NCBI RefSeq assembly: GCF_003987355.1
Contig: NZ_PIPR01000001.1
Location: 1,612,001 to 1,676,000 of the forward strand
Direction of reading: 5' to 3'
Origin: Pseudidiomarina aestuarii
Lineage (GTDB): Bacteria > Pseudomonadota > Gammaproteobacteria > Enterobacterales > Alteromonadaceae
DNA length: 64,000 nt
This document shows, one piece after another, positions 29,189-51,975 of this stretch. Under the pieces are notes generated by a model. It made no database searches and was not told the DNA's origin. It saw nothing but the letters and a program-made list of their open reading frames with translations. The position numbers were made by a program, and so were the translations under genes. How positions within the stretch are numbered: position 1 is the stretch's first letter; each line of letters starts with the position of its first letter.

Positions 29189-29216
29189 GAGTAAGCTCCG
29201 TATTTTTGTATTCGAA

Positions 29217-30365
29217 TCAAGATTGACTTTCAAGTATCGCAATCATTGCCTTCGCTACGCCTGCTGATGATTGGTAGTTTTGCCCCGTTACTATGCGGCC
29301 ATCAACCTCTACATGCTCTTGACCGCGCGGGCTATACAAGAAGTCACCGCCGCGCGCTTCGATGGTTTTAGTGATGTGAAACGGAAACTCTTTGAAATAC
29401 GGTCGGTCAGGATTCTCATATTCGTCTGGATAACCGCTGATACGTTTACCTTTGACCAAGTATTCGCCGTTCGTGAGTCGCAAATGCGCAATACCAGCAG
29501 TACCGTGGCATACGGCAGAAATGATGCCGTTGTGTTGCTCATAGATTGTCATCGAAATGCGTTGTAACTCAGCGTTGTCAGCCACGCCATACATAGCGTT
29601 GGTACCGCCTACATAGTGGACTGCGCGGTAGTCGTCCGGAACAACCTGAGTCGGATTCATGGTATTACCAATCGCATACATAAAATCGGCGTCGTACAAG
29701 TATTTCTTGTGCATCGGATCCGATGTATTGATATACGCTAGTGGCAAAGCACCTCCGTCTGGACTCACAAAGTCAACGCTGTAACCCGCACGAATAAACT
29801 CATCGTAGGCATTAACGATTTCAGAAAAGCTCACCCCAGTAGGAAGATTTGAAGCACCGTGAAAGTGTGCGCTAGAAAGAATAAAAAGAATGCGCTGACC
29901 ATTAACATTACTGCTGGATCCAGCAGCAGATTTGCTAATAATTTGCCATTTATCTGCTACTTTTTTAAGGAGAAAGCGATCGACGAATCGCTGTTTCCTT
30001 TGCGGCATTAAAATTTCAGCTTTTGCAATCGCTAGGTTGCCCTCCACATCAATCTGCAAAATACGACCGATGCGACCGTTATCAACACCCTTGTTCTCGT
30101 CTTTATGCCAACTTAGATACTCATCGATGGAGACTTGCCAAACCGCGGCATCTGCCTTTTCTAAATAAAGCAATGCATCAGGATGAAAGGCCTGCGCCAA
30201 CTTTTCAGCGTCACTGTGTGATGAGCCATAAAAATACAGCTCAAGCGTTTGGGTGATAGCAGTCCGATTTTGTGCTTGCTGCGACTGAGTTGCATACGCC
30301 GCCGCACTGCAGAAGAACACCGATACTAATAAAAGTAGCTTTAAAACAACGTGACGACTAAACAT
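29217..30365 (-). CDS. Exported DJ-1/PfpI-family protein with N-terminal NTF2/SnoaL-like domain (paralog A)
   Basis: Two-domain exported protein of 382 residues. A signal peptide (LKLLLLVSVFFCSAAAYATQ) precedes an NTF2/DUF4440-like domain (NRTAITQTLELYFYGSSHSD through WQIISKSAAG). A DJ-1/PfpI domain follows from ~residue 155. The nucleophile elbow is AVCHGTAG near residue 284. YVGGTNAMYG stands for the usual GG motif, and DGRIVTGQNYQS is the family C-terminal block. Relatives act as glyoxalases, deglycases or chaperones, but export and the NTF2 fusion are atypical. GGAG lies 6 bases before the ATG at 30365. It heads the operon with the S33 hydrolase, divergent from the AraC gene. Confidence 0.85.
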   Translation of the reverse strand: MFSRHVVLKLLLLVSVFFCSAAAYATQSQQAQNRTAITQTLELYFYGSSHSDAEKLAQAFHPDALLYLEKADAAVWQVSIDEYLSWHKDENKGVDNGRIGRILQIDVEGNLAIAKAEILMPQRKQRFVDRFLLKKVADKWQIISKSAAGSSSNVNGQRILFILSSAHFHGASNLPTGVSFSEIVNAYDEFIRAGYSVDFVSPDGGALPLAYINTSDPMHKKYLYDADFMYAIGNTMNPTQVVPDDYRAVHYVGGTNAMYGVADNAELQRISMTIYEQHNGIISAVCHGTAGIAHLRLTNGEYLVKGKRISGYPDEYENPDRPYFKEFPFHITKTIEARGGDFLYSPRGQEHVEVDGRIVTGQNYQSSAGVAKAMIAILESQS

Positions 30366-30462
30366 ATTCATCTCCAATAAATGTCGGTAATTTGGCAATT
30401 TAGACCAGCCTATTACGCTCACTTAGAGGATCTCGTGAAGGCTGAAGTGCGACCTTAGCTGC

Positions 30463-30510
30463 CGCCAAAAGACGAATCGTCCTTGCCACGTAGGAAGGAC
30501 TGTTTTGGCG
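30463..30510. repeat. Extended cruciform carrying palindromic box copy 2
   Basis: Box copy 2 occupies 30478-30503 with arms GTCCTT (30479-30484) and AAGGAC (30495-30500). It sits inside a second perfect inverted repeat, CGCCAAAA (30463-30470) and TTTTGGCG (30503-30510). The structure lies in the divergent promoter between the DJ-1 A gene and the AraC gene, 45-53 bases before the AraC start. It is a natural operator candidate. Confidence 0.75.
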
Positions 30511-30555
30511 ATCCGTGTGCTATGCTGATTTTTTAGGGTAAGTGCATCGACATCT

Positions 30556-31683
30556 ATGTTAGCTATCTTCTTTTCTTCGCTCGCCATGGCAGTGGCCGGC
30601 TTTGCTATTTTTCATATTCCTAAACGTCGGTCGAGGGGACCTCTGCTGCTGCTTTTAAGTTGTCTCCTTTACTTGTCCTCGGGTGCAGTGGTGTTTGAGT
30701 TAGCACCAAACCTCGTACACCTTTATGTAAGTTTTATTCCGGTTGTATTTTTTCTATTTCTGCCAGCGTTTTGGCTTTACCACGATGCAACTATCACAAC
30801 TGATTTATGGTGTTGGAAACCATCGATGTTGAAGCACTTTGCCATCGTGCCGGTTGTGTTATGCCTGAGTATTGCGCTCGCGCTGCTTCCGGCGAAAGAC
30901 TTTCAGCAGATGTTTTTCGCGTCAGAACCAGTCGATACACCATGGCTTATCACGTTAGCTATGGCGTTTGCTTTCTTCTTAGTGGTCTGGTTCCTGCTCA
31001 GTTGCGGCTACGTATTCAGTATTTTTCGTCGTACATTGGCTTATCACAAAAACATCCGACTCATATACGCGGATGAATCAGGACGTAAACTGAACTGGGT
31101 CATTATTACGTCCGCCCTAATGATCTTGACGTGGGTCTACGCCCTCGTTGTGCTCGCGCTAGAAAACAGACTTGCTCACTTGGGTATTTCAGAGACGGGA
31201 GTACTCGGGTTGTTGTCGCTTATCGTGTGGTTAGTGGCTCACAACGGCATCAAACAACAGACTGGATTCGGTGAGACAACAGAGGCGAATACAGAAATAG
31301 CGCACGTGATAAAAGCACAAGCCTATGAACGCTCGGCACTGCGCAAGAAAGATTTGCAAAGAATTGCAGCGAAAATAGAAACCGCTGTAGCGCAAGACCA
31401 GATTCATCTAGAATCAGACCTGAATCTCGTCAAACTGGCGAAACATATTGCTGAGCCGCCCCAGTATATTTCCCAAACATTGTCACAGCACCTCAATACC
31501 ACCTTCTTTGATTTTATCAATAAAGCAAGAATCGACGATGCACGACAGTTATTAGCCACGACGGACCACTCCGTACTAGATATTGCCTATGCGACCGGTT
31601 TTAACTCGCGCTCGGCTTTTTATAAAGCGTTTAAAAACTACCTAAATCAGACCCCAAGCGAATACCGAGCGAATTGCCCCTAA
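30556..31683 (+). CDS. Membrane-anchored AraC-family transcriptional regulator
   Basis: Protein of 375 residues. The first ~240 hold about seven transmembrane helices. The last ~100 are an AraC/XylS DNA-binding domain with two helix-turn-helices: NLVKLAKHIAEPPQYISQTL and SVLDIAYATGFNSRSAFYKA. Membrane-AraC proteins of this kind are thought to sense signals at the membrane. It is divergent from the DJ-1 A/S33 operon and flanked by inverted copies of the 26-base palindromic box, one in its promoter and one 5 bases after its stop. Autoregulation and control of the divergent operon are inferred. Confidence 0.88.
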   Translation: MLAIFFSSLAMAVAGFAIFHIPKRRSRGPLLLLLSCLLYLSSGAVVFELAPNLVHLYVSFIPVVFFLFLPAFWLYHDATITTDLWCWKPSMLKHFAIVPVVLCLSIALALLPAKDFQQMFFASEPVDTPWLITLAMAFAFFLVVWFLLSCGYVFSIFRRTLAYHKNIRLIYADESGRKLNWVIITSALMILTWVYALVVLALENRLAHLGISETGVLGLLSLIVWLVAHNGIKQQTGFGETTEANTEIAHVIKAQAYERSALRKKDLQRIAAKIETAVAQDQIHLESDLNLVKLAKHIAEPPQYISQTLSQHLNTTFFDFINKARIDDARQLLATTDHSVLDIAYATGFNSRSAFYKAFKNYLNQTPSEYRANCP

Positions 31684-31688
31684 TGCTA

Positions 31689-31714
31689 ACTGTCCTTCCT
31701 AGGTGGGAAGGACG
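31689..31714 (-). repeat. 26-base palindromic box, copy 3 (inverted)
   Basis: On the minus strand this reads CGTCCTTCCCACCTAGGAAG followed by GACAGT, 23/26 identical to copy 2. It forms an 8-bp stem GTCCTTCC/GGAAGGAC just after the AraC stop codon. It may serve as terminator for that gene, but it lacks a T-run and shares its sequence with the promoter copy. Confidence 0.75.
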
Positions 31715-31817
31715 AAATGCCTGTTTGCACTCCTTACTATCGCCGCACTCATCTTCACAAAAAGCTGACATTTAGCATGCCACACTCACGGGCTCGCTAA
31801 ACTTCAATGGATCATTC

Positions 31818-33308
31818 ATGAAAAAGGTAATAGTAGTCATCCTGTTCGCTACGCTTAGTTTCTACGCTGCATCAAGCTCGGCTAGTCTGACGCCAACAGC
31901 CGCCCAAACAAACACTACAACTGATTCTGTTACACAAGCGATTGTCGATAAAGTGATCGCGACCTATGGCGGTGATGTGCTCTTACAAGCCGACAGCATT
32001 AGAGTAATTGATTACAACAAAGGCCCATGGCCTGGCGAGGGTGAAACGCCCACTATTCCCGAGTTATGGCGAATCAATGAAGAACTGACGATAGACTTCG
32101 TGGGACAGCGCAAAAGTTTGCTGTCTTACCGCGTGCCGCGAACCACCATCGACTTGGAAAAGTGGATTCAGCAGGGTGAACAAACTATCGCGTATGACAT
32201 CCTGCATGAGAAATACTCCGAGCAAAACTGGGCTACCTTTGCACGTCTCGGTGCGTCACTTGAACGCAGCAGCGATACGTTGCATGCTCGGCACTTGGCG
32301 AATCTAACAGGCCAGCTAGACTATATTGGCGATGACTATTTCCGTGGCCGTCTGCAACACAAGTTGACTTACGAAACCGACTCCGGCGAGCGCTATACCT
32401 ACTTCGTTGACAAGGCAAATGGGCTTATCCACAAGCTATTGCGCCAACACCCTCGCGCTGGCGATCTGCTTTATGTTTTTTCCAATCATAGTACCGACAG
32501 CAAGGTCGCCTTTGCCCGCGACATGAACTTCTTTGTTAATGGCGAGCTGCGCTTAACCTCAGTACACCGTGCAATTGAACTCGACCCAGATCTCGTGGCC
32601 GCATTTCAAGGCTTTAAGAATTTTACTCCTTGGGGTGAAACAATTGACGCTTCTGAGCTAACTGTCAAAGAGATTTCCGATGGCGTGTATCAAGCCGGCA
32701 CCGGTCGCTCACTTACGGTGTTTATTGAGCAGTCAGACCATTACATAGGACTGGGAGCGGCGGATGCCCTAGCAGACAATTTTGCTGAAATAAAAAAGCT
32801 GTCTCAGCAAGATAAGCCGCTCAACTACTTTGTCGTCACGCATCATCACAATGCCAATGTGCGAGGCTTAGATAACGCCTTAACCTTAGGTGCTACTTTA
32901 GTGGTTGCTGAACAGCATAGAGACTCTATTCTAAGCCATATCACTGTCGACGAGGCCGACAACAAGATCATTTCGGTCCCACCACGAGCAACATTTGCGT
33001 TGGGCAATTTAGAGCTATTTGATATTGCTACCGCACACTCCCGTCATTATTTATTAGCCTATTTACCTGCAGCCCAGATGGTGCTTGCAGAAGACCATTT
33101 CGTCACTGATTTGAAAGCCGCAAAACCACGAATCTATCATGACATGGTGCGCTTCGCTGACGCACTTGCCGAGCTCAATCTTGCAGTAGAGAAGCTGGTA
33201 GATATTCGTGGTTGGCGTCAATTCAGTATGGACGAATTCACGCAATGGACACGTGACTTTACGCCAAAAACCTGCCCGCCAGGTTATGAGATTTGTGCAG
33301 ATGGTTAA
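31818..33308 (+). CDS. Exported metallo-beta-lactamase-fold-like protein, degenerate metal site
   Basis: A 496-residue exported protein with signal peptide (MKKVIVVILFATLSFYAASSSAS). The N-terminal ~250 residues are not assigned. The C-terminal ~220 resemble a metallo-beta-lactamase fold: FVVTHHHNANVRGL sits where HxHxDH is expected and HYLLAYLPAAQMVLAEDHF resembles the later metal motif. The Asp of HxHxDH is missing, so zinc hydrolase activity is doubtful. The SUMF1-like gene starts 7 bases downstream and a GST-like gene overlaps that one, giving a three-gene operon. Confidence 0.72.
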   Translation: MKKVIVVILFATLSFYAASSSASLTPTAAQTNTTTDSVTQAIVDKVIATYGGDVLLQADSIRVIDYNKGPWPGEGETPTIPELWRINEELTIDFVGQRKSLLSYRVPRTTIDLEKWIQQGEQTIAYDILHEKYSEQNWATFARLGASLERSSDTLHARHLANLTGQLDYIGDDYFRGRLQHKLTYETDSGERYTYFVDKANGLIHKLLRQHPRAGDLLYVFSNHSTDSKVAFARDMNFFVNGELRLTSVHRAIELDPDLVAAFQGFKNFTPWGETIDASELTVKEISDGVYQAGTGRSLTVFIEQSDHYIGLGAADALADNFAEIKKLSQQDKPLNYFVVTHHHNANVRGLDNALTLGATLVVAEQHRDSILSHITVDEADNKIISVPPRATFALGNLELFDIATAHSRHYLLAYLPAAQMVLAEDHFVTDLKAAKPRIYHDMVRFADALAELNLAVEKLVDIRGWRQFSMDEFTQWTRDFTPKTCPPGYEICADG

Positions 33309-33315
33309 GGAACAT

Positions 33316-35037: not shown

Positions 35038-35675
35038 ACACATTAATATGGGTGATCGATTCGCCATTCTCGCGAGCGGTTAAGTGGTTATTGTTGAAGA
35101 CGGGAATGAAACATAGTGAGCACTTGCTAACTTGGGACAGTCTAGCAAACGACCCCAGGCTGGCTGAGTGCAATCCCAAGCTACAGGTTCCCACTCTGAT
35201 TGCTGACGACGAAACACTCACCGATTCGCTGCTGATCATATTGCGGTTATTAGGACACGACTGGCACCGCACTGTTGACGCCCAGCTGTTTCGCCTTGGT
35301 GATTGCGACTTTGAAGCGACGCTAATCTTTTTGTTCCGTGCAAACCTATTGGCGCATAAGTACGGCCGCAGCCAAGAAAGCAACTTCATGCGTGAGGCCG
35401 GCGTAGCGACCTACCAAAAAAGCGTTGATATTCTGCTTGACCATCTAGTGGTTAACACCGCAAAGATCGAGGTGAACGTCGGCTTAGTTTTGGTGTTCTC
35501 GATGGTGCTTATTGCCCGCTCTAATGCGCAGTCAGATATTGTGCGCGATTATCGTATTGAGGAATTACTGCCGTTTCATGAAGCGCTCACTGCTGACCTC
35601 GTCTACCAACAGCTTGCCCAAAGCTACAGCGGTCAAGAAGGTAATCGGTGGCCTTTCTTTATTAATTACTCTTAA
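35034..35675 (+). CDS. Glutathione S-transferase-like protein
   Basis: Cytoplasmic protein of 213 residues. The N-terminal thioredoxin-like half has SPFSRAVKWLLLKTGM and the cis-proline motif VPTLIADDETLTDS, where the glutathione-binding E-S dipeptide reads D-S. The C-terminal half is helical as in GSTs. The start is GTG at 35034, overlapping the previous stop; GAGGAG precedes it. Its 3' end overlaps the convergent histidine kinase by 14 bases. Activity is unproven; it may only share the fold. Confidence 0.72.
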   Translation: MNTLIWVIDSPFSRAVKWLLLKTGMKHSEHLLTWDSLANDPRLAECNPKLQVPTLIADDETLTDSLLIILRLLGHDWHRTVDAQLFRLGDCDFEATLIFLFRANLLAHKYGRSQESNFMREAGVATYQKSVDILLDHLVVNTAKIEVNVGLVLVFSMVLIARSNAQSDIVRDYRIEELLPFHEALTADLVYQQLAQSYSGQEGNRWPFFINYS

Positions 35676-36912
35676 AACGGATCTCGAGCTGAAATTGTGG
35701 TGGCATAGAATTGATCTCGAGCTGCCACTGATTCAACTGGCAGATCCGCTTCACCAAATGCAATCCCTGTCCGAGTCCTTGGCTAGCAGGTCCACGCACG
35801 CTTGCGGTTGTCAGATCGGCAGGTGTCGTTTCGGCGATTGGATTCGTAAAGTGTAAAGCGTTACTCTGTAATTTAATTTGCAAGCTGGGCTTGCTCGCAT
35901 GTTCTAGTGCGTTATTGATCAGGTTGGTCAACATTAACTGAAGAAGATTCTGATTAGCGTTGATTCGATAGTTGCTAGGCACATCAATATGCAGCTCAAA
36001 CTCTTCGAGATCAGCTAATTTTCGGTGGTTCACAACGCAGGATTCCAGCTCAGCCAATAGCCCTAATGATTCAGTATGGACCGATTCTTCACGCGCTAGT
36101 GCAAGCAACACAGTCGTGGTTTCTTCAATTCGCGCAACCATTTCTTTGAGTTGCTTGCTCTGCTGTTTACTCAGCCCTTTCGCGTCATCAAGACGCTCAA
36201 CCAGAAACTTTAAAACAGTGGTCGGCGTGCGCAGTTCGTGACTGATATCGCGAGTGAAATCTGCCTCACGTTGCAAAGCGATCTGCAATTTATCGACACT
36301 GTTCTTAACCACATCGGCAAGGTAGCCAATTTCGTTCTGCGGTAATTGCGAGGGCAATTCTATAGATCTGCTGCTGTCGCTTGATTGTTTGAATCGGGTC
36401 GCTAATCGAGTGAGTGGCTGGGTAATGCTGCGCCCCAAATAAAAACTAAGTAACCAAGCTGCACCCATCACAATGGCAAAGATCAAACCGATCCATGGCA
36501 CCAAGCGCGGTAAATAATCGCGCGAAACTTCTAAGCCAGTGACATCGGCTGTCAGAATCCATTCGTCGCCGCCTAGTTGCAACGTTTGCAGATGTAAAGT
36601 ACCACCATTTGCTGTCGGAAACTCAACGCGTTCAGATGAGAGTTGACGTAATTCTTGGACCTGCTTTGGCAGTTCTTGCCAATTGGAATAAATCGTCATA
36701 AACGGAAAGCGTGGCTGAACCACTTGCGACTGTTCGGCATAAACTCGCTCAAGATAGTTCGCCTCACTGCTCACCAGACGATTAAAGACATTATCCTCAA
36801 CCACGTAGGCATATGCGATGAGCAAGCTCACTAAGCAAACTGCGAGCGCCAGTGCAAAACTCACGACCGCGATCTGTAGTGTCTTTTTAATACTCGAATT
36901 GGTGCCGTTCAT
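35662..36912 (-). CDS. Sensor histidine kinase (two-component set 1)
   Basis: Inner-membrane kinase of about 416 residues, QseC/PmrB-like. Transmembrane helices lie at ~15-37 and ~138-158 around a ~100-residue periplasmic sensor; a HAMP domain follows. The phospho-acceptor is H225 in DISHELRTP. The ATPase N and G regions appear as NLINNALEHA and GLGQGLHLV. It is paralogous to the kinase at 50041, sharing ADFTRD and the GxGQGLxLVxRI block. The ATG at 36912 leaves a 16-base gap to the response regulator; a longer frame to 36969 would overlap it by 41 bases. It is the third gene of the S41-regulator-kinase operon. Confidence 0.88.
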   Translation of the reverse strand: MNGTNSSIKKTLQIAVVSFALALAVCLVSLLIAYAYVVEDNVFNRLVSSEANYLERVYAEQSQVVQPRFPFMTIYSNWQELPKQVQELRQLSSERVEFPTANGGTLHLQTLQLGGDEWILTADVTGLEVSRDYLPRLVPWIGLIFAIVMGAAWLLSFYLGRSITQPLTRLATRFKQSSDSSRSIELPSQLPQNEIGYLADVVKNSVDKLQIALQREADFTRDISHELRTPTTVLKFLVERLDDAKGLSKQQSKQLKEMVARIEETTTVLLALAREESVHTESLGLLAELESCVVNHRKLADLEEFELHIDVPSNYRINANQNLLQLMLTNLINNALEHASKPSLQIKLQSNALHFTNPIAETTPADLTTASVRGPASQGLGQGLHLVKRICQLNQWQLEINSMPPQFQLEIRFKSN

Positions 36913-36928
36913 TTGCGCTTTCACTGTG

Positions 36929-37618
36929 TTATTTCGACTCACTGGAATGCAGCCGGAACCCGACCCCATGTAAGGTTGCTAACATGGGAGTGGCAAATGG
37001 TTTATCCAGGGCTTGTCGCAAGGTGTAAATATGCGAGCGCAACACATCGCTATCAGGCATATCATCTCCCCAGAACTTGTTGATGACCTCCTGCCGACTG
37101 ACAGCATTTGGATACGCCCGAACCAGTAACAGTAAAATAGCAAAGTCCGTGCTACTTAACTTGAGTGCTTGCCCGTTGCGCTGCGCCCACTGCTGACGCT
37201 CATTGACCTCGAGGTCACCGATCTTCACCGTTTGTGCTTGATGCAGCTGCTGGCGACGAGCCAACGCTTGGCAACGCAGGTAGAGCTCTTGTAAATCAAA
37301 TGGCTTCGTTAAATAGTCATCCGCGCCTGCAGCAAAGCCGACAGATTTATCAGCAATACTGTCGCGCGCCGTGAGCAGCAGCACAGGCGGTATTGGGTCA
37401 CAGCTTAGCTTGATACTCTCGCACACCTGAATACCGGTCATGTCAGGCAGCATGACATCCAGAATCACAACGTCGTAATTCTGCTCTTGCGCTAACTGCA
37501 GGCCGTGCCGACCGGTCGCGGCGAAGTCGATTTGTACGCCCTGCTCTTCTAGAAAGTCACAAACCTCAGTCGCAATAGCTAGCGTATCCTCAACCAACAG
37601 GACCGATAATGAGGTCAT
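36929..37618 (-). CDS. OmpR-family response regulator (two-component set 1)
   Basis: Regulator of 229 residues: receiver domain with phospho-acceptor D54 (VVILDVMLPD) and Lys in TKPFDLQEL, then a PhoB/OmpR winged helix ending VGFRLHSSESK. It is closely similar to the regulator at 51260 (both have TARDxIADK, GADDYLTKPFDL and RCQ...RRQ/RH). Its start overlaps the S41 peptidase stop (37615-37618, ATGA), so translation is coupled. It likely controls its own operon and the divergent DJ-1 B gene. Confidence 0.92.
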   Translation of the reverse strand: MTSLSVLLVEDTLAIATEVCDFLEEQGVQIDFAATGRHGLQLAQEQNYDVVILDVMLPDMTGIQVCESIKLSCDPIPPVLLLTARDSIADKSVGFAAGADDYLTKPFDLQELYLRCQALARRQQLHQAQTVKIGDLEVNERQQWAQRNGQALKLSSTDFAILLLLVRAYPNAVSRQEVINKFWGDDMPDSDVLRSHIYTLRQALDKPFATPMLATLHGVGFRLHSSESK

Positions 37619-39000
37619 TGCAGCAGCTCCTTAATTTTTGTCAGCGCGGTGTCACTGCCACTTGCGACGTCGGGCTGAACTATAACGTCAGGGACAACAG
37701 TCGTTACCTCTCTCGCACCGTTTGGACGCACCAACAGCCGAGTGGCAACATAAGCGCGCAGCTGCGAGTGCGGCAGATTAAATAAATTCCCTTGTGCGGT
37801 TTGATTCGCATAACCGCCGGTTGACTCACCAACGAGTGTACCCATTTCGTTGTCCTGCACTGTCGTTGCGAAAACAATGGCTGCTGAATAGGTTACCGGT
37901 CCAATCAGTACGTAGACATTGCCGGTAAAGCGTCTTGCTTCGCTTTTTGGGTTCACTTCGTCGGTCCATGGCGTACGGATTATGTCGCCTACACTCCCTT
38001 TATAGCCGAACCAACCGCGATTGTCCTCGTTGAGTCGTTCGGTCACGTGCGACACTAGCTGAAAAGGTTTGTCGGCAAGGTAGCTTGCAAGCTCCGTGGC
38101 AGTATCAGTATTACCACCTGTGTTATCGCGAATATCGATGATCAAATGCTGAATGTTTTGCTGCTTGATAGTCGAAAAGTATTCTGCAATATCATCAGCG
38201 AATTGCTCTGGATCGACATCGAATGAACTCACGCGCAAATAGCCGAGGCCAGGCTCTAAAATTTGCAGTTCTAATTCTGAGTGGGCAACTTGCGCGGTTT
38301 GCGACTGCCATTGTTGAGTACTGTTCAATTTAATCGAGTCTACTTGGGTTTCGTGTTGCACTTCCAGTTCGAAGTTGCCAATCATGCCGAACACTGCCCA
38401 TAAAATATAGGGAAAGCGTGCTGCTACAAAAGCTTCTCGAAGGCGTTGCGTCTCACCGCCGACGAAGTGCTGACCTTGTTCTATGATTTGTTCAGCTGAA
38501 ACGCCATTAATAGAGATAATTCGGCTTCCAGCTACAAGTGTTTTAGATTCACTATCTGTACTTAAATTATAGTCACGAGCCAGATACAAAGAACCATCTT
38601 GCTCCTTCACCGCAAAAGGAAATGGCGCCGTTCCGGCGTCGACTGCTGCAGCGTATTCTTGATAAGGCCAAATTAAAAAACTGTGACCATCATTGAACAA
38701 ATGCGACAGTTGCCCGACATAACGAAAAAACTCCACACGAGTCAGTGGTTGATCGATGTGTTGCTTAAGTTTAAGCACACTCTGCTGTAGCTCTTGCTGG
38801 TTAGCATAGCCGTCGAAGTCAGGATGCCGTGCCTGAACGCCAGCGACGAATGCATCAATATCTTGATGAAGCTCTGTGACCGAGATTTTTCGGTCCATCA
38901 GGCTTGGGTCTTCTAGCTCCGGAAAAATATCCAAATGAGACTGCGCGCAGCCACCAAGCAGAAAAATTGTGAGAAATAGTATCGCTTTACATGTGTTCAT
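37615..39000 (-). CDS. S41 family peptidase lipoprotein
   Basis: Exported serine peptidase of 461 residues. The lipobox FLLGGC places it as a lipoprotein. The C-terminal-processing-protease-like domain shows LGYLRVSSFD, LIIDIRDNTGGNTDTATELA and the nucleophile Ser in TYSAAIVFA, followed by LVGESTGG. No clear PDZ domain is present, as in tail-less S41 members. AGGAG lies 6 bases before the ATG at 39000, favouring it over 39036. Placement as the first gene of a two-component operon suggests a sensing or feedback role. A perfect 14-bp palindrome lies 31 bases upstream. Confidence 0.88.
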   Translation of the reverse strand: MNTCKAILFLTIFLLGGCAQSHLDIFPELEDPSLMDRKISVTELHQDIDAFVAGVQARHPDFDGYANQQELQQSVLKLKQHIDQPLTRVEFFRYVGQLSHLFNDGHSFLIWPYQEYAAAVDAGTAPFPFAVKEQDGSLYLARDYNLSTDSESKTLVAGSRIISINGVSAEQIIEQGQHFVGGETQRLREAFVAARFPYILWAVFGMIGNFELEVQHETQVDSIKLNSTQQWQSQTAQVAHSELELQILEPGLGYLRVSSFDVDPEQFADDIAEYFSTIKQQNIQHLIIDIRDNTGGNTDTATELASYLADKPFQLVSHVTERLNEDNRGWFGYKGSVGDIIRTPWTDEVNPKSEARRFTGNVYVLIGPVTYSAAIVFATTVQDNEMGTLVGESTGGYANQTAQGNLFNLPHSQLRAYVATRLLVRPNGAREVTTVVPDVIVQPDVASGSDTALTKIKELLQ

Positions 39001-39031
39001 GGTTGTCTCCTGTAGCTTGGTGCATAAGCTA

Positions 39032-39045
39032 CACAAACGTTTGTG
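39032..39045. promoter_or_regulatory. Perfect 14-bp palindrome in the divergent promoter
   Basis: CACAAACGTTTGTG lies between the S41-regulator-kinase operon and the DJ-1 B gene, 31 bases from the first and 91 from the second. It is a candidate operator for this region. OmpR-type regulators more often bind direct repeats, so the binding protein is uncertain. Confidence 0.5.
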
Positions 39046-39136
39046 AAGACTTTGTCGAGACTGTCCAAATTTTCTTCACATTCTCACGACGACTCCCCAA
39101 CTAAGATGCTCGAGAATCTTAATCGGGAGACCTTTA

Positions 39137-40261
39137 ATGAAAAATGTAATCTTATTTTTAATCGGAATAGCATTGATACTGGGCAGTTGTTGCCTTAGCA
39201 GTGCCATGGCACAAACCGTCAGCAAAGAATCCAGTGGTAAACGCGTACTCATGCTGATTTCGAGCAACGGAACCGAACAGGCGCCAGAACTCAGTTATGA
39301 TCTTGAAGAGCTCGCCCAAGCCTATTTGGTGCTGTACGACAATGGTATTCGGATCGATATCATGAGCCCCAAAGGTGGCGCGGTGTTGGTGAAGAATAAC
39401 AAAGACGACTTAGCATATATTCAACGATTCAAAAAGCTCGCTTTGAAGCAACTCGGGAATACTCTAGCACCGACAGATGTAGATCTCAGCGATTACCATG
39501 CCGTCTTTGTTATTGGTGGCTCAGGCGCAATGATTGACCTGCCTGCAGATGACGCAACGCAAGCACTACTCAGCTCAGCGGTCAATGGAGATATGACTAT
39601 TGTCGCGGTCTGTCACGGTCCGGCTGCGCTGGTAAATCTGCAAAACGAAGACGGTTCGTGGTTCGTCGGAGGAAAGCGTATGAATAGCTTCACCAATACC
39701 GAAGAACATGCGTTTTCAGCCGAGCATATCGAACACTTCCCATTCTTACTCGAAGATAAATTAAGAGAACGTGGTGCTATCTTCGTCAATAATGCACCAA
39801 TGTTGCCTTATGTTTCTATAGATGGAAATCTAATCACCGCGCAAAATCCCGGCTCTGTCGCCAAAGCAGCTGAAGCCACAGTGTTAGCTCTTGGCTTGCC
39901 ACTGCAAGAGCGTCAACCGTTCTCTGATGAAGCGACCATGGCATTGATTTCAGCGGCTCGCGAAACGGGTTCGACAATGCTCGATCTTGCGCTTGCTCGT
40001 GAGGCCGACAGCTACGATATGAATTATCTCGCACTCTACGGTTTTTATGCCTATCGCCTAGCTGATGAGCAAAATAAAGCGCGCGAGTTGGAGCTCATGC
40101 ATACTATTCGCAAGTACTTCTCGCATCCGGAGTACGACACGCAGCTCATTCTTAACTTACTTGAGCAAGGTCAGCGCGAACAGGCACTCGGTATTTTCGA
40201 AGAGTTTAAAGTTAAGTTTGCGGGGCATTCGAACCTTAGCAAACTTGAAGCACTGTTCTGA
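39137..40261 (+). CDS. Exported DJ-1/PfpI-family protein (paralog B)
   Basis: Protein of 374 residues with signal sequence (MKNVILFLIGIALILGSCCL); LGSC could be a lipobox, or cleavage may follow AMA. The DJ-1/PfpI domain spans ~33-250 with nucleophile C159 in AVCHGPAAL, FTNTEEHAFS, FPFLLEDKLRERGA and DGNLITAQNPGSV. A helical extension of ~110 residues follows (EATMALISAARETGSTMLDL onward), resembling TPR helices. These blocks are shared with paralog C at 47589. The divergent arrangement with the S41/two-component operon suggests common control. Glyoxalase, deglycase or chaperone activity is a family possibility only. Confidence 0.86.
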   Translation: MKNVILFLIGIALILGSCCLSSAMAQTVSKESSGKRVLMLISSNGTEQAPELSYDLEELAQAYLVLYDNGIRIDIMSPKGGAVLVKNNKDDLAYIQRFKKLALKQLGNTLAPTDVDLSDYHAVFVIGGSGAMIDLPADDATQALLSSAVNGDMTIVAVCHGPAALVNLQNEDGSWFVGGKRMNSFTNTEEHAFSAEHIEHFPFLLEDKLRERGAIFVNNAPMLPYVSIDGNLITAQNPGSVAKAAEATVLALGLPLQERQPFSDEATMALISAARETGSTMLDLALAREADSYDMNYLALYGFYAYRLADEQNKARELELMHTIRKYFSHPEYDTQLILNLLEQGQREQALGIFEEFKVKFAGHSNLSKLEALF

Positions 40262-40280
40262 CTTCGAGCTGCCCCTGCTT

Positions 40281-41087: not shown

Positions 41088-41225
41088 CGAGGTTCATTCC
41101 GCTTTAGTTCGTATTATTTAATTATACTAGCCAAACAAACTGCTAAATGCTTATACCACAGGCTTCCTAATTCGTGAGGAGCATTAAGACCATTCATTTT
41201 TGCATGATTCCGCAACACGATCCCT

Positions 41226-42212: not shown

Positions 42213-42323
42213 CTACGCACCTCGTATAATTCGTTCCTTGGGTGCGTCTATACTTGGTTGGCTCGGTCTGTTGCTCAAGAAAAGTATGATGAAAAGAGAC
42301 GATGTCGTGATCAACGTGCGAAT

Positions 42324-43193: not shown

Positions 43194-43225
43194 TCTAATT
43201 CTCTGTCACCAAAAATGAATTTCAG

Positions 43226-43241
43226 TATACATTTTTGTATA
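43226..43241. promoter_or_regulatory. Candidate LysR operator
   Basis: TATACA-TTTT-TGTATA is a perfect 16-bp inverted repeat. It overlaps a second inverted repeat, CAAAAATG (43210-43217) with CATTTTTG (43230-43237). Both lie 17-50 bases upstream of the LysR start, facing the divergent methyltransferase gene. Confidence 0.55.
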
Positions 43242-43333
43242 GCCAGCAAACAATGAAAAAAGAAGAACCTCTGTTTGGCTAGTGGTATTTTGCAATTCAC
43301 CAAACAAATTAAGTGCCATGTGCAACCATTAAC

Positions 43334-43972: not shown

Positions 43973-43996
43973 TTACCCGATTATAAAGAGGAACAA

Positions 43997-44860
43997 GTGA
44001 AACCTTACTTATACATGGTCGGATACGGACTATCCCAAACAATTGTCTGGATTTTAGTGTCCTATCTCAGTCAATCCGTTGCGGTGACAGTCATGTTCCT
44101 CGCTCGCAACTTGGTGGGCTTTTTGCTTACTTTTCTATTTTCGGCTAACAAGGCTCTACCGTTGGCCTCATTTAAACGATGGAAGGCACATTTTTTCCGT
44201 GCGAGTGCAACTCTTCTTGGCGGTTTAAGTATTTTTTATTCAGTTACCAAAATTCCTGTTGCCGACTCAGTTGCGATTACGTTCTTGGCGCCGATTTTTG
44301 GTACAGTTTTGAGCATTTTCTATCTTGGAGAAAAGCTAACAAAAGCAACTCTATTCAAATTAGTGGTTGGCTTTATTGGTGTTTTTATTATTACGGGCTT
44401 TAGTGCTGAGGGCGACGCGATTGGCTATGCCGCGGCATTATTTGGCGCCTTTATGACTGCCGTAGCATACGTTTCGGTAAAAAGTTTGTCGGACACCGAG
44501 TCGCCACAAACGATTTTGTACGTTTCTTACCTTGTGATGGTCCCTATCTCTGCCCTGCTGGCAATTGATGGCTGGGTTACCCCGACGAACACACAGCTAC
44601 TTTGGCTACTAGCTATCGGTACAGCATTCTATTTGGCCCAAATTTTTATGGCGAAAGCGTTCTCCCTAGCTCCCGCAGCGAAGGTCCTTCCTGTCGACTA
44701 CTCGAGGATTATCTTTTCAAGCGTTTTAGGGTTCGTTTTTTTAAACCAATCGATGACCCTGAGTACATACATCGGTGCTGCTGTCATCTTACTAACTGCC
44801 ACATTACGAGAAAAAGATATTGAAAAACTATCGTATCGCCGTATTTTCAAGCGCCCCTAA
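43997..44860 (+). CDS. EamA/DMT-superfamily transporter
   Basis: Inner-membrane protein of 287 residues with about ten helices and two internally related EamA halves (IFYSVTKIPVADSVAITFLA and AQIFMAKAFSLAPAAKVLPV). Family members move amino acids, nucleotides or drugs, often outward. The start is GTG at 43997 with AGAGG 5 bases upstream. It overlaps the PhzF start by 41 bases. Its company with a methyltransferase and PhzF suggests export of the cluster's product. Confidence 0.9.
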   Translation: MKPYLYMVGYGLSQTIVWILVSYLSQSVAVTVMFLARNLVGFLLTFLFSANKALPLASFKRWKAHFFRASATLLGGLSIFYSVTKIPVADSVAITFLAPIFGTVLSIFYLGEKLTKATLFKLVVGFIGVFIITGFSAEGDAIGYAAALFGAFMTAVAYVSVKSLSDTESPQTILYVSYLVMVPISALLAIDGWVTPTNTQLLWLLAIGTAFYLAQIFMAKAFSLAPAAKVLPVDYSRIIFSSVLGFVFLNQSMTLSTYIGAAVILLTATLREKDIEKLSYRRIFKRP

Positions 44861-45611
44861 TGCTGGCAATCATTGTCTTGTTTTCTTAGTAAGCAAAGAA
44901 CTCACTAAGCGCGAGATGCAATCGGCAGCTGCAGAAAACGGGCTTTCTGAAACAGCGTTTATTCACTTATTGGGTAACAAGGCAACCCTGCGGATTTTTT
45001 CGCCTTTATGCGAGATGCAATCGTGTTTACACGCGACTCTCGCGGCTTGCTACGTCATGCATCACGAAGGGCTCAATTGTGAATTGCATTTTGGAGGTGG
45101 CATTTTAAAACCTCAATATGTCAATGATGAGTTAGCTCTACGCATCCCTTTGCTCCCAAAAGCAGCCATCGAGCAAACGACCGCACTCGTTTTACGCAAA
45201 CACTTTATAAACGCCTCGTCGCTATGGCCTGTAGCAACAGCCAGTCAAAAGTTACGTTTGATGATCGAATACGCCGATGAACGGTCTATCAGAGCGATTC
45301 AAGCTTCTTCTTTCACGGATATCGCCGACGCTTTTCCTGATATTGAATCATTCTTTGCCTATGCCGCAACCGATCTACCCAATGCCTTTATTGGGCGAAT
45401 GTTTGCACCACAACTTGGCATCAGCGAAGACCCAGTGAATGGCAATTCATGCATTGCACTCGCCTCAATACTATCGGTACAAACTGATGACTTAGGCGTT
45501 CTAATGGTACGCCAAGCGCAGCAATGCAGTGTCGAAATGACCATCGAAAACAATAACGCTCTGGTTACAGCCAACTGTTGCTTCGCCGAGCTTGAAAGCC
45601 GAGGCCTGTAA
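44820..45611 (+). CDS. PhzF-family epimerase/isomerase
   Basis: Protein of 263 residues with the two-fold diaminopimelate-epimerase-like architecture of PhzF. The catalytic Glu is E44 in GLSETAFI. The usual CGHAT motif reads CLHATLAA. The second half has DPVNGNSCIALAS. Family members include trans-2,3-dihydro-3-hydroxyanthranilate isomerase in phenazine synthesis, but no other phz gene is nearby, so that pathway is not implied. The start is a TTG inside the EamA gene (41-base overlap); a later start is possible. Confidence 0.82.
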   Translation: MKNYRIAVFSSAPNAGNHCLVFLVSKELTKREMQSAAAENGLSETAFIHLLGNKATLRIFSPLCEMQSCLHATLAACYVMHHEGLNCELHFGGGILKPQYVNDELALRIPLLPKAAIEQTTALVLRKHFINASSLWPVATASQKLRLMIEYADERSIRAIQASSFTDIADAFPDIESFFAYAATDLPNAFIGRMFAPQLGISEDPVNGNSCIALASILSVQTDDLGVLMVRQAQQCSVEMTIENNNALVTANCCFAELESRGL

Positions 45612-45612
45612 A

Positions 45613-46638
45613 ATGAACAATAAATTTAGTTTTTTAATGTATTCCGTGGCTCTATTTGCGTTAAGCATCCTATCCAGTCCAAGTGCCGCCGAGGAAAAGC
45701 CCACCGATGAACCCTTTCATTACTCAGTAAATCTTCCGCAGTCGTATAACGACTCTAATCGCAGCTACCCTGTAATTTTTCTTGTCGATAGCGGCCCTTT
45801 CTATAAAGGCGATTACTTCAATGAAGCCGTTGAAGCAATTCGGCGACTTGAAGAATTTCATGAATTCCCACAAACGATTATTGTGGATGTCGAAGTTAAA
45901 CAGCTCTGGCGCCACGTCACACGTGACCGAAACATGCTAAGCGAGTGGCTCAGTTCTGAACTAGCTCCGCTTATTGCGAAGCAATACCGAACTCTCAAGC
46001 GTAATAGTATTGTCGGTTTTTCGTATACGGCAGGCGGACTAATGAACTCTCTCGCACTTCGCGAAAGTCCTTTCACCACCATTATTAGTTTGTCACCGGT
46101 TTTTGATTCCATCAGCGATATACCTGAGGAATTAGCAAACGACAATATGTTACGTCAACATTTCGTGGTGTTTGGCAATGAGAGTCACCGACTTATGCAA
46201 TTCTACAAACCGCTACTGGATTCTCAGAGCAACGCCGACTTATCCATCATTTCTCTACCACAAGAAAACCACCAATCAGCTCTCATTCCGGGATTGCGTG
46301 CGGCCCTTTTACAAGCACACTCAGATTACCAGCTACCCAGCTACAAACAGTTCACGCAACGCGATTATAAAGTTCAAGACTTAATGGAGATCCTAAAGCA
46401 GCGGACCATCGACTATGGCGCGGCACCCGAGTCATCTTTGCTTTCAGAGCTAACACTCGCAGCAGCCGAAACCTACACTCAGTTGGGCAAGTTTGAATTA
46501 GCTGAGCAACACTGGCGCTTCACAGAATCCGAGCATAAATCTTACTTCATGACGCAGATAATTGCAGAGTTCGAACGCAATAATCAAACAGAGTGGGCTG
46601 CGCGGGCAAAATCCTTAAGTCAAAGGCTAGATCTTTAG
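45613..46638 (+). CDS. Exported esterase-like alpha/beta hydrolase
   Basis: Exported hydrolase of 341 residues with signal peptide (FSFLMYSVALFALSILSSPS). It belongs to the putative-esterase (EstD/Fes-like) group: YPVIFLVDSGP, WLSSELAPLI and the nucleophile S137 in GFSYTAGG. About 80 helical residues with TPR-like spacing follow at the end. GAGG lies 8 bases before the ATG at 45613, one base after the PhzF stop; the longer frame from 45592 would overlap it. Siderophore or sugar-ester hydrolysis are family possibilities. Confidence 0.83.
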   Translation: MNNKFSFLMYSVALFALSILSSPSAAEEKPTDEPFHYSVNLPQSYNDSNRSYPVIFLVDSGPFYKGDYFNEAVEAIRRLEEFHEFPQTIIVDVEVKQLWRHVTRDRNMLSEWLSSELAPLIAKQYRTLKRNSIVGFSYTAGGLMNSLALRESPFTTIISLSPVFDSISDIPEELANDNMLRQHFVVFGNESHRLMQFYKPLLDSQSNADLSIISLPQENHQSALIPGLRAALLQAHSDYQLPSYKQFTQRDYKVQDLMEILKQRTIDYGAAPESSLLSELTLAAAETYTQLGKFELAEQHWRFTESEHKSYFMTQIIAEFERNNQTEWAARAKSLSQRLDL

Positions 46639-46665
46639 AATTCGCACAATTGAAAATGGAAAAAA

Positions 46666-47535
46666 ATGACTTTCAAAAAAAATTTCAGGACTCTTTGGGT
46701 CGTACTGACATATATGATCACCTGCCCGAGTTCTTGGGCCATAGAAATCGAAATCGACGGTGAACTATTCGAAGTTAATCGCATTAACCAACATGTAGTT
46801 ATTGCCAGCCAAGCGTTTGGTACAACGCGAATTAACTTCGGTATAGTGGTCGGTTCCGATGAAGTGGTGTTGATCTCATCCATGATGCGGCGCAATGCTC
46901 AGTCTGTAGAAGAGCTGGTGCGGCACGTCAGCGGCAAACCAATTACCAAAGTTTTAGTTATTGATTCGGATCCTTTCCACCATCATGGCAGCTCCTATTT
47001 TCGAGACCGAGGCGCTACGATTATTGGTCATGAAAACCTCACTACGCAGGGAGTAACGATAGATATTAGCTTCTCAGAGGAGCTTCTTATCGATGCTGGC
47101 ACAGAGACCATTCGCATGACCCATTCAGCGGCCCACACGCTCGATCACGCCTTCATTACTTTAGAAAAAAGTAACGTCGTTTTCGCTGGGGATGCTCTAC
47201 GTAACGACTGGCTTATTTATGCTGGTCCCAACGGCTGGCCGGCGCACATTTCTGCCTTGCGCGAGATAGCTTTTGAGCAAGCAGACTCAACAATCTTTGT
47301 TCCAAGTAATAGAGGACAAAAGGTCAGCACTTCCGCTGCTGAACTCAACAAAATCATTGGCATCTATGAAGGCTTCAGCGAGTTGTCTCAGAAACTCGCT
47401 CACGAGGGTTTATCTGCTAACGCGATCGCTGACCATCAGGACATCAAATCTCTGTTGCAAGGACTGGAGCGCTACGACGAGTTCGTAACTTATACCATCC
47501 ACCATGTTGAAGACGTATTCAGAAGCGGCTTATAA
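46666..47535 (+). CDS. Exported metallo-beta-lactamase-fold hydrolase
   Basis: A 289-residue exported protein with signal peptide (FRTLWVVLTYMITCPSSWAI). Metal motifs are partly degenerate: VIDSDPFHHHGSSYFRDRGA replaces the HxHxDH loop, while SAAHTLDHAF and VFAGDALRND match the later His and Asp ligands. One or two zinc ions could still bind. It ends before a strong bidirectional terminator at 47551. It is the last gene of the cluster begun at 43334. Confidence 0.82.
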   Translation: MTFKKNFRTLWVVLTYMITCPSSWAIEIEIDGELFEVNRINQHVVIASQAFGTTRINFGIVVGSDEVVLISSMMRRNAQSVEELVRHVSGKPITKVLVIDSDPFHHHGSSYFRDRGATIIGHENLTTQGVTIDISFSEELLIDAGTETIRMTHSAAHTLDHAFITLEKSNVVFAGDALRNDWLIYAGPNGWPAHISALREIAFEQADSTIFVPSNRGQKVSTSAAELNKIIGIYEGFSELSQKLAHEGLSANAIADHQDIKSLLQGLERYDEFVTYTIHHVEDVFRSGL

Positions 47536-47550
47536 CTTAGTCAAACCAGA

Positions 47551-47587
47551 GAGCTTGGCTGCTAAAAGCCAAGCTCCTAGTTTTCAA
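47551..47587. terminator. Bidirectional Rho-independent terminator
   Basis: A perfect 10-bp stem GAGCTTGGCT/AGCCAAGCTC with a 6-base loop (47551-47576) is followed by CTAGTTTT. On the minus strand TCTGGTTT follows the stem. It sits between the convergent MBL-fold gene and DJ-1 C, ending both transcripts. Confidence 0.88.
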
Positions 47588-47588
47588 C

Positions 47589-48659
47589 CTATCGACTTTT
47601 TGAAACATTCGCCAAGCGCAATAAATCGATTCCTTTGCTGATTTCAAAATCGATCATGGCAACTAAAGCATGGGTAAGAACTGTTAAACTTTTAACGCGG
47701 TGTTCAGAGTTTAACAACTCGCCTCTAGCCAACTCGTAGCCCTTTGCTTCATAGATCATCAACACGTCAATCGCACGCTCTTCCTCGGTTCGAGGACGAT
47801 GTTTCGGGGTATAGCCAAGCTCTTCTACCACTAACTCAGCGACTTTCCAGACCGACCAGGGGTTCTGGCCTGTTATAAGCTTTCCGTCTTGGGCCACATT
47901 TTCAAGATAGCGTGCACCCTCGATAAAGTTGGCACCTCTCTCTTCCAGCATGTCTTCTAAGAGAAACGGAAAGACTTCACTCGCATTTGGAATAATGAAT
48001 AACTCTTCTTCATTGGTAAACCCACTAACATCTTTGCCAGACAACAAGTAACCTCCATCGTCTAACCGTGCATTTAAAAGTGCGGCGGGGCCATGACATA
48101 CTGCGCTCACGACACGGTCACTTTCGTACATTGTTTTGACGATTCTTTGTATGTCAGTATTTTCTGGGAAGTCAAACATGGTGCCTTTGCCGCCAACGAA
48201 ATAGACCGCCTGGTAATCAGTTGCATCAATATCGGCCAAGGCAAGAGAGTTTCTTAATTTGTGCTGAGAATCAGGGTCATTCAAGAATGCATAGTCATAG
48301 ATGTCCATATCGTCATTATCCATGACCGCAGGAGGGTTTCCCCCGACAGGGCTTGCGATATCAACCTCAAATCCATTCGCCGTAAACACCCAGTAGGCTC
48401 GAGCCAGTTCGGTGAACTCAAAGCCGGCTTCTATCTCATCGTTTGCCTCTCCAACATTGGTCACCACCGCGAGTATTTTTCCTCGATACTCTGGTCGTTC
48501 CGAATTGAGGTAATCAAGCTCGCTTTTTTGCGTGCTCTTTACTGATTCAATATGCGCTTTGTCCGGCACGAAACCTTTGATCCAGCTTTGTAACCCCAAA
48601 AAGCTAGCGAATAAGACACTAATGATAACGATTAGACTGACGATCAACTTTTTGATCAT
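47589..48659 (-). CDS. Membrane-anchored exported DJ-1/PfpI-family protein (paralog C)
   Basis: Protein of 356 residues with an N-terminal signal anchor (KKLIVSLIVIISVLFASFLG). The DJ-1/PfpI domain has C188 in AVCHGPAAL, FTNEEELFI, FPFLLEDMLEERGA and DGKLITGQNPWSV, each nearly identical to paralog B at 39137. A helical tail of ~90 residues follows. It is the last gene of the run beginning with the response regulator at 51946, 63 bases after the retropepsin-like gene. Linkage to a second, paralogous two-component system mirrors paralog B. Confidence 0.85.
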   Translation of the reverse strand: MIKKLIVSLIVIISVLFASFLGLQSWIKGFVPDKAHIESVKSTQKSELDYLNSERPEYRGKILAVVTNVGEANDEIEAGFEFTELARAYWVFTANGFEVDIASPVGGNPPAVMDNDDMDIYDYAFLNDPDSQHKLRNSLALADIDATDYQAVYFVGGKGTMFDFPENTDIQRIVKTMYESDRVVSAVCHGPAALLNARLDDGGYLLSGKDVSGFTNEEELFIIPNASEVFPFLLEDMLEERGANFIEGARYLENVAQDGKLITGQNPWSVWKVAELVVEELGYTPKHRPRTEEERAIDVLMIYEAKGYELARGELLNSEHRVKSLTVLTHALVAMIDFEISKGIDLLRLANVSKSR

Positions 48660-48722
48660 AGATACTCTCCTACTAAATAAAGCAGGAGAGTAACCTCAAT
48701 GAAGTAAAAAAATAGTGAAACG

Positions 48723-49949: not shown

Positions 49950-50040
49950 AACTGTTACTCAAATAATCGAAGGAAACCAATAATGAAGTCTATTGCTAAA
50001 GAGGTAAAAAACAGGTGAAGTCAAAAAACGGGAGAAGGTG

Positions 50041-51946: not shown

Positions 51947-51975
51947 TTCAGCTTCCCTCGGCTCATACACTTACC

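Follow-up and report, generated by a model that had tools for sequence, protein, structure and literature searches.

Exported DJ-1 proteins, a linked two-component system and interchangeable partner genes: a probable envelope-stress regulon in Pseudidiomarina aestuarii and its relatives

The window analysed here is a 64,000-nucleotide stretch of Pseudidiomarina aestuarii DNA (assembly GCF_003987355.1, contig NZ_PIPR01000001.1, positions 1,612,001 to 1,676,000, forward strand) that holds three genes for predicted exported DJ-1/PfpI proteins, termed DJ_A, DJ_B and DJ_C. DJ_B and DJ_C each lie in a unit (B and C) with a hydrolase-like gene and a two-component system, comprising a response regulator (RR) and a sensor kinase (HK). 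Comparison with relatives suggests that units B and C are probably two branches of one envelope-stress regulon. As judged from gene neighbourhoods, the regulator is the constant partner of the DJ-1 gene, and the peptidase belongs to a set of interchangeable modules. The well-studied DJ-1 proteins are intracellular, and their true substrates are disputed. In the following, L numbers denote fetched loci and G numbers genomes, with G000 being the window's own. The genes of the two units, and one candidate further member of the regulon, are as follows.

31818..33308, plus strand: MBLx, candidate regulon member with a hydrophobic N-terminus and, by eye, a degenerate metallo-beta-lactamase-like fold (near S41 in L082 and L083; no Pfam match)
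35662..36969, minus strand: HK_B, sensor kinase with two membrane segments (Pfam, HK comparison, hydropathy)
36929..37618, minus strand: RR_B, OmpR-type response regulator of the DJ-linked RR clade (Pfam, RR comparison, tree)
37615..39036, minus strand: S41 peptidase with a lipoprotein-like N-terminus (by eye), likely start ATG 39000 (PF03572, 91.5 bits against a cut-off of 24)
39137..40261, plus strand: DJ_B, predicted exported DJ-1 protein of the Hsp31/glyoxalase III type with a C-terminal extension, S41 clade (PF01965, 45.4 bits; Glu-Cys-His conserved; tree)
47589..48659, minus strand: DJ_C, predicted membrane-anchored DJ-1 protein of the Hsp31/glyoxalase III type with C-terminal helices (PF01965, 55.4 bits; AlphaFold2 model)
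48723..49949, minus strand: retropepsin-like lipoprotein (by eye) with two DTG motifs read in the translation (PF13650, Asp_protease, 45.7 bits against 24.3) and a weak PDZ match (18.4 bits, under the cut-off of 23.2)
50041..51270, minus strand: HK_C, sensor kinase (Pfam, HK comparison)
51260..51970, minus strand: RR_C, response regulator (RR comparison, domain scan, RR tree)

In unit B, the S41, RR and HK genes run along the minus strand with DJ_B divergent from them; unit C reads RR, HK, retropepsin and DJ_C, all on one strand. Both systems are of the OmpR type, with a receiver plus Trans_reg_C regulator and an adjacent HisKA/HATPase kinase, the HATPase_c domain of HK_C scoring under its cut-off (20.8 against 26.4). 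They are homologous to one another (RR 52%, HK 29% identity), as an earlier note made from the sequence alone had proposed. RR_B, RR_C and HK_B lie under the curated cut-off of every NCBIfam model among the best 25 for each, and the S41 peptidase under those of the named CPAF and Ctp models. The same note had placed an S33-type hydrolase, a membrane AraC regulator, an S41 peptidase, a retropepsin-like gene and the two two-component systems around three exported DJ-1 genes, and all are present as it described. Its ‘PDZ retropepsin-like lipoprotein’ retains the protease assignment, with both the Pfam match and the DTG motifs in place, whereas its PDZ match stays under the cut-off. The span it gave for the whole arrangement (29217..48659) leaves the S33 gene, the retropepsin gene and HK_C/RR_C (50041-51970) wholly or mostly outside.

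Genome-wide, four PF01965 matches were found at E ≤ 0.001, three of them within 20 kb in the window. All three exceed the Pfam cut-off of 26.6 bits (DJ_A with 31.4), and a simple hydropathy test places a single hydrophobic segment at the N-terminus of each protein, which upholds the reading of three exported DJ-1/PfpI genes. Over the aligned regions, DJ_C shows 40% identity with DJ_B and 36% with DJ_A, and DJ_A bears an additional N-terminal Lumazine_bd_2 domain. The AlphaFold2 model of DJ_C (mean predicted local distance difference test score 95.6) consists of a 27-residue N-terminal helix, the DJ-1 domain and four C-terminal helices. Glu84, Cys188 and His189 (DJ_C numbering) are invariant in the aligned set, in 43/43 B/C, 15/15 A and 26/26 short proteins. 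By profile, the best-matching solved proteins are ThiJ/PfpI-family proteins, glyoxalase III and yeast Hsp31. The window proteins are nevertheless not HchA itself, since their scores of 31.3, 59.8 and 73.7 bits fall far under the HchA equivalog cut-off (NF003168, 365 bits). A recent tandem duplication of A, B and C is ruled out by their positions in separate clades with relatives in other genera.

DJ_C and DJ_A were each searched in 98 genomes of the same family. B/C-type frames of at least 340 residues occur in 35 genomes, including the window's own, and the 42 such genes outside it were all fetched. Around the long B/C genes, the DJ_A orthologs and 25 places with short relatives, taken from the ranked list, stretches of at most 20 kb were compared with the window genes by phmmer, and a scan of public genomes with DJ_C added 80 named loci. 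Linkage was counted within four genes, with identical proteins counted once.

An RR and an HK lie beside the long B/C gene in 33 of the 42 family loci and beside none of the 26 short relatives (Fisher 1.7e-11). Among the named loci, an RR or HK accompanies 27 of 52 long and 0 of 27 short DJ-1 genes (5.9e-7), the short controls including three long-type genes that are cut or broken (L168 and two pieces of L181). A hydrophobic N-terminus is present in 40/42 family B/C, 49/52 named and 11/14 DJ_A proteins of the long form; the remainder perhaps have miscalled starts. Such an N-terminus is also found in the short DJ-1 proteins at L100-L103 (among the 26 family controls) and L134 (among the 27 named controls), so that ‘short’ does not equal ‘cytoplasmic’; as these have neither the system nor the operator described below, linkage tracks the long form rather than export itself. 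The system also accompanies membrane-anchored C-type DJ-1 in Aestuariibacter, Neiella, a Paraglaciecola metagenome-assembled genome, Thalassotalea, Microbulbifer and Massilia. A wide spread of the B type through the class was not borne out, as among 369 genomes only G261 (415.6 bits) and G109 (347.8 bits) outside the family score clearly above short relatives at 340 residues or more, with the 346-residue frame of G319 (215.7 bits) no higher than the short relatives. G261 has the DJ-RR-HK linkage; that of G109 is unscored because its DJ-1 frame was lost in gene calling. In Bacteroidota, an AraC-type gene, in place of this system, adjoins membrane-anchored DJ-1 in 8/13 loci (L144, L145, L146, L150, L151, L163, L168, L181), and the seven full-length AraC-type proteins have 5-7 membrane-like segments.

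The linked regulators are also related by descent. In a midpoint-rooted tree, all DJ-linked RRs but one form a single clade, apart from the seven other OmpR-type regulators of G000 that were included (three others were excluded for distance or length). The sole outlier, in L050, had matched RR_B at just 51 bits. Within the clade, the S41-linked, C-type, YbbAP-linked and hydrolase-linked regulators form largely separate groups, and the DJ-1 clades, in a tree from which some short controls were thinned, largely follow partner type too, with the exception of retropepsin, which is found in both the C and YbbAP clades. Tree distances correlate between DJ-1 and RR (r 0.81) and between DJ-1 and HK (r 0.84; 59 pairs, 0/999 permutations). 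The DJ-linked kinases have about 100 residues between two membrane segments.

A shared candidate operator provides further evidence for the regulon. A TTCAC-N6-TTCAC direct repeat occurs in 47/65 module promoters, against at most 2 for any dyad in 50 shuffles. After removal of two duplicate promoters, the count is 45/63, against 17/2364 background stretches, and the median distance to the called start is 61 bases. This count, the tests that follow and the weight-matrix scores below used upstream stretches of at least 120 bases. The half-sites thus repeat with an 11-bp period. Outside the discovery set, the repeat precedes 6/9 retropepsin genes that are not beside DJ-1 and 14/23 long proteobacterial DJ-1 genes without a nearby two-component system. 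Inside YbbAP operons, it precedes the DJ-1 gene itself in 13/17 cases, one of the 18 YbbP-linked genes (L080) lying beyond the distance used. The controls are empty: short DJ-1 0/53, DJ_A 0/14, Bacteroidota long DJ-1 0/10 and canonical YbbA 0/30. Retropepsin genes from two genomes in which no exported DJ-1 was found likewise lack it (0/2; one of these genomes, G029, is 81% complete).

Divergent versions of this repeat are found in the window at five positions, each starting 57-70 bases before the likely start codon (taking the inner ATG 39000 for S41).

31754..31769, plus strand: operator variant before MBLx (pattern search)
39043..39057, minus strand: operator variant before S41, CGAC-N6-TTCAC (pattern search)
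39075..39090, plus strand: operator variant before DJ_B, TTCAC-N6-NNGAC (pattern search)
48704..48719, minus strand: operator variant before DJ_C, TTCAC-N6-TTTAC (one-mismatch search)
50004..50019, minus strand: operator variant before the retropepsin-like gene, TTCAC-N6-TTTAC (one-mismatch search)

The DJ_C and retropepsin sites reach the 99.1st background percentile with a weight matrix built from other loci. TTCAC-N6-TTTAC, a pattern chosen after the fact, occurs three times in the window against 0.15 expected (0/100 shuffles reached three) and in 1/2370 background stretches. In the S41 clade, NCGAC-N6-TTCAC precedes S41 in 6/7 loci (background 2/2370, windows of equal length) and TTCAC-N6-NNGAC precedes DJ_B in 6/6 genes (background 9/2370). 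The latter form also precedes MBLx in 3/3 orthologs, L082 counting only if the true start lies inside the called frame. Seven positions in the C-terminal half set six S41-clade RRs apart from 54 others, and three of the positions (187, 192 and 199) lie in or near the presumed recognition helix. The altered half-site and these residue differences are no more than suggestive of partial joint divergence.

Several observations weigh against this reading. No two-component system lies near DJ-1 in 9/42 family and 25/52 named loci. The correlation of DJ, RR and HK distances may be partly due to species relatedness, for which it is uncorrected, and in the midpoint-rooted DJ tree the B and C clades do not form a group free of short relatives. 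The exact repeat precedes just 2/6 retropepsin genes beside DJ-1, contrary to expectation. Across the 35 genomes, the exact TTTCAC-N5-TTTCAC form has 119 sites against 54 for a reversed control pattern, so that many sites are due to chance and a lone site proves little; indeed, several unlinked exact sites in relatives sit inside genes and look like chance. In G000, the exact form occurs nowhere. One-mismatch matches in the window number 7 against 4.6 expected, which is no overall enrichment, although two of the seven stand directly before DJ_C and the retropepsin gene. The S41-clade and TTTAC variants were both defined post hoc, the former by eye in the same promoters, and with the general weight matrix the S41, DJ_B and MBLx promoters of the window reach just the 88th-92nd percentile. 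The RR_C gene of the window lacks an operator of its own. At L235, the seventh S41 locus, whose RR was left out of the first helix comparison and inspected later, the exact TTCAC repeat is retained although that RR carries Ala192 and the Thr199 typical of the clade; the RR of L099 has Ala192 but a changed half-site. Neither residue 192 nor 199 therefore fully tracks the operator, and four further clade-specific positions lie outside the presumed helix.

The L235 mismatch led us to lower, slightly, our estimate for co-regulation by the linked regulator, which we still regard as likely. Co-regulation itself is well supported, and comparison of the sequences shows the linkage, the shared operator and its absence from controls.

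Two observations on the operator stand apart. An exact copy lies about 78 bases before the gene of a 609-residue protein, by eye an exported serine hydrolase (L298:3621-5528), which is a possible regulon member. Pairs of TTTCACAACTWTTTCAC-like sites 13-15 kb apart were seen in three related genomes, G061 (L301, L302), G013 and G095.

The earlier note had read the arrangement as a recurring unit of DJ-1, peptidase and regulator, and had called for a survey of neighbourhoods. For B and C the unit recurs, with linkage far beyond chance, and the survey confirms the regulator in 33/42 loci; for A it does not recur, and across the family the commonest partner of long B/C-type DJ-1 is a YbbAP-like ATP-binding cassette (ABC) transporter rather than a peptidase. 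Within four genes of DJ-1 in the 42 family loci are a YbbP-like permease (18), retropepsin (6), S41 (5) and alpha/beta-hydrolase (5). In L057, for example, the transporter consists of an ABC ATPase of about 231 residues and a YbbP-like FtsX permease of about 830 residues. Close S41 orthologs occur in six other genomes among the 98, and five of these have DJ_B and the two-component system. The sixth (L235:7269-13886) has S41-RR-HK between two identical, opposite-facing DDE transposase genes and no DJ-1, and no DJ_B was found in its genome. Retropepsin orthologs in the 35 genomes number 15 outside the window's own at E < 1e-80, six of them within 5 kb of exported DJ-1. Among the other nine, one is some 17 kb away from a DJ_B and another neighbours a kinase and a regulator belonging to the DJ-linked clade. 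Retropepsin co-occurs with exported DJ-1 at the level of whole genomes, being present in 15/35 genomes with and 2/63 without it (1.4e-6; 98 genomes).

Searching with the exact operator also led to a family of proteins of about 245 residues, here named Exp245 (L057:13494-14234, L061:6534-7304, L236:7029-7769 and 13 more in the alignment). All 16 members in fetched loci are preceded by the exact repeat, a count that is partly circular for the seeds, which were found via the sites. Two more members came from unlinked sites (L300, L308). Exp245 occurs in 17/35 genomes with exported DJ-1 and 1/63 without (1.4e-8; 98 genomes). The sole exception is G076, whose DJ-RR-HK set lies at the end of one contig and whose operator-bearing Exp245 and YbbA genes lie on another. 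Since 9 of the 16 proteins have a hydrophobic N-terminus, Exp245 is probably exported. In the four members scanned, no Pfam match exceeds its cut-off, and no solved protein emerged as a credible relative. Of four distant homologs, one (in G019) is outside the count, and the other three lack the operator.

Taken together, these features suggest the following mechanism, in which we infer the linked regulator's binding of the operator, the activation, the signal and the chemistry. HK_B or HK_C, in the inner membrane, would sense an envelope signal and phosphorylate its response regulator, which would bind the direct TTCAC-type repeat, with its 11-bp period, about 60 bp before start codons. The bound regulator would turn on the long exported or membrane-anchored DJ-1 of the Hsp31/glyoxalase III type, together with a clean-up module: S41 and the MBL-like protein in unit B, the retropepsin-like lipoprotein in unit C and, in relatives, the YbbAP-like transporter, an esterase-like hydrolase and Exp245. 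DJ-1 would then remove reactive alpha-oxoaldehydes in the periplasm, and the partner would remove damaged envelope protein or lipid.

We advance this chemistry tentatively, judging it more likely wrong than right. According to one report (PMC11301059), HchA, in which the Cys-His pair occurs, acts as a glyoxalase but has no esterase activity, and altering that His yields esterase activity. Another (PMC11987610) describes P. aeruginosa PfpI as a methylglyoxalase dependent on Cys and His. By analogy, a glyoxalase accords better than an esterase with the conserved Cys-His pair, and we predict that the exported DJ-1 is a periplasmic alpha-oxoaldehyde hydratase. As an observation on the short branch, genes such as L110, L116 and L117 often lie between a LysR gene and a gene of about 385 residues, which in the two scanned is an iron-dependent alcohol dehydrogenase; these neighbours agree with aldehyde detoxification for that branch. 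The fullest form of the proposal is possible but doubtful: a distinct envelope response to carbonyl or oxidative damage, with a dedicated two-component system and TTTCAC-N5-TTTCAC operator, a periplasmic glyoxalase-III-type DJ-1, a swappable machine (Type VII ABC transporter, peptidase, retropepsin or esterase) and Exp245, in which DJ-1 would take TesA's place in the ABC-bearing form.

The proposed regulon resembles several known systems in part. With the Hsp31/glyoxalase III branch (yeast Hsp31, Glx3, E. coli HchA), it shares the domain, the invariant Glu-Cys-His and profile matches; it differs in export or membrane anchoring, the extended C-terminus, a dedicated membrane regulator and an operator in common with hydrolases. 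Like the OmpR-family envelope-stress systems of the Cpx, Bae and Pmr types, it has an OmpR-type regulator and a two-segment membrane kinase, but with its own RR clade, its own half-site sequence and scores under the NCBIfam cut-offs. Tandem half-sites with an 11-bp period are a trait of the OmpR family and are common to the candidate operator. The Bce traits used for comparison are in part general background. As in BceAB-BceRS systems (PMC12646458), an FtsX-like ABC transporter stands beside a two-component system in relatives; here, in contrast, the kinases have their roughly 100-residue intermembrane region and an exported enzyme is present. The YbbAP-TesA Type VII ABC system of E. coli (same source) parallels the relatives' pairing of a YbbA/YbbP-like transporter with an exported-enzyme gene, but their YbbP-like protein reaches 163 bits against a 999-bit cut-off (NF041854), and DJ-1 stands in TesA's place, followed by the two-component system. 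The units of the window do not include the YbbA, YbbP and TesA set; the canonical pair and a GDSL gene are elsewhere in G000.

In the open-access literature searched, we found no description of the combination of DJ-1, two-component system and partner, nor of an envelope-stress regulon in which an exported DJ-1, probably glyoxalase-III-like, is joined by one or another clean-up hydrolase. By locating DJ-1 in the periplasm and giving it a dedicated sensor and a known set of partners, such a regulon would offer a genetic handle on the purpose of DJ-1 chemistry. It also suggests that TesA may not be the only exported partner of YbbP-kind Type VII ABC transporters.

The main rival for DJ-1 function is a TesA-like role beside YbbAP, which we consider less probable than the proposal above. 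Here, exported DJ-1 would be a hydrolase acting on molecules pulled from the inner membrane by the YbbAP-like transporter, with another hydrolase replacing the transporter where it is missing. YbbAP-TesA is a proven transporter-hydrolase complex (PMC12646458). A canonical YbbP (best piece 310-657 bits) is present as well in each of the 35 genomes, which were chosen for exported DJ-1, and it is a second YbbP type (≤ 198 bits) that adjoins exported DJ-1, in 18 of 23 cases; the canonical YbbA neighbour in G000, at the one locus scanned (L209), is a GDSL hydrolase like TesA. The lack of YbbAP in window units B and C and the lack of esterase activity in HchA both argue against this role. Second-type YbbAP pairs also occur apart from DJ-1 (L239:2444-6409, L240:8683-12656), where a FG-GAP-repeat protein follows and exact operator sites precede YbbA.

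The repair unit proposed in the earlier note, in which DJ-1 would strip glycation from damaged exported proteins and leave those past rescue to be degraded by the peptidase, is rather unlikely. The similar operator variants borne by the DJ-1 and peptidase genes within unit B, and again within unit C, would suit it; a transporter as commonest partner would not, and human DJ-1 is a glyoxalase and not a deglycase according to a 2023 paper (PMC10634309).

Less probable again is that exported DJ-1 serves as a ligand or redox sensor feeding back on the kinase rather than as a clean-up enzyme. Its linkage to two unrelated kinds of membrane regulator, the kinases and the membrane AraC, is consistent with such a role, as is the high DJ-HK tree correlation. 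The invariant Glu-Cys-His speaks for an enzyme instead, the DJ-1 gene of the YbbAP clade bears its own operator like other effectors, and several loci of Pseudoalteromonas, Colwellia and Undibacterium lack such a kinase near DJ-1.

Chance accumulation of exported hydrolase and DJ-1 genes in islands, with no functional unit, is very improbable for B and C, since the operator also occurs at unlinked genes but not at close controls, and the partner tracks the DJ-1 clade, even though the window region is rich in hydrolase-like genes and unit A looks like just such a chance or hitch-hiking case. The genes at and beside unit A are as follows.

26196..26843, minus strand: distant Exp245 relative (phmmer 26.9 bits; alignment)
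27689..29242, minus strand: S33-type alpha/beta hydrolase behind DJ_A, a local association only (Abhydrolase_1/TAP-like Pfam)
29217..30422, minus strand: DJ_A, predicted exported Lumazine_bd_2 plus DJ-1 protein, separate clade, no operator (Pfam, tree, promoter tests)
30556..31683, plus strand: membrane AraC regulator, beside TM26 in two other genomes without DJ_A (hydropathy, ortholog loci)

DJ_A belongs, as far as orthologous loci indicate, to a separate, AraC-linked branch, with a membrane AraC gene directly upstream in 13 of 14 ortholog loci. The earlier pairing of DJ_A with the S33 and AraC genes of the window does not hold. S33 is within four genes in 0/14 DJ_A loci, the nearest approach noted being an S33 ortholog about 7 kb from DJ_A in L092. 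The window AraC, which has about seven hydrophobic segments in the simple hydropathy test, is 31% identical, mainly over the C-terminal 120 residues, to the AraC that precedes the 13 orthologs, and its own orthologs in L083 and L240 adjoin TM26 without DJ_A; it was therefore rejected as DJ_A's regulator. At the same place in the same-genus genome G026 are TM26-AraC-MBLx-GST and HK-RR-S41-DJ_B, with neither S33 nor DJ_A, and that genome has no DJ_A match at E ≤ 1e-25. In G016, DJ_A stands beside DJ_B-S41-RR-HK, so that it is not always foreign to the module.

Elsewhere in the window (14000-22000), the GC content drops from about 52% to 40-42% immediately beside a tRNA-Arg gene (14256-14332), resembling the edge of a genomic island.

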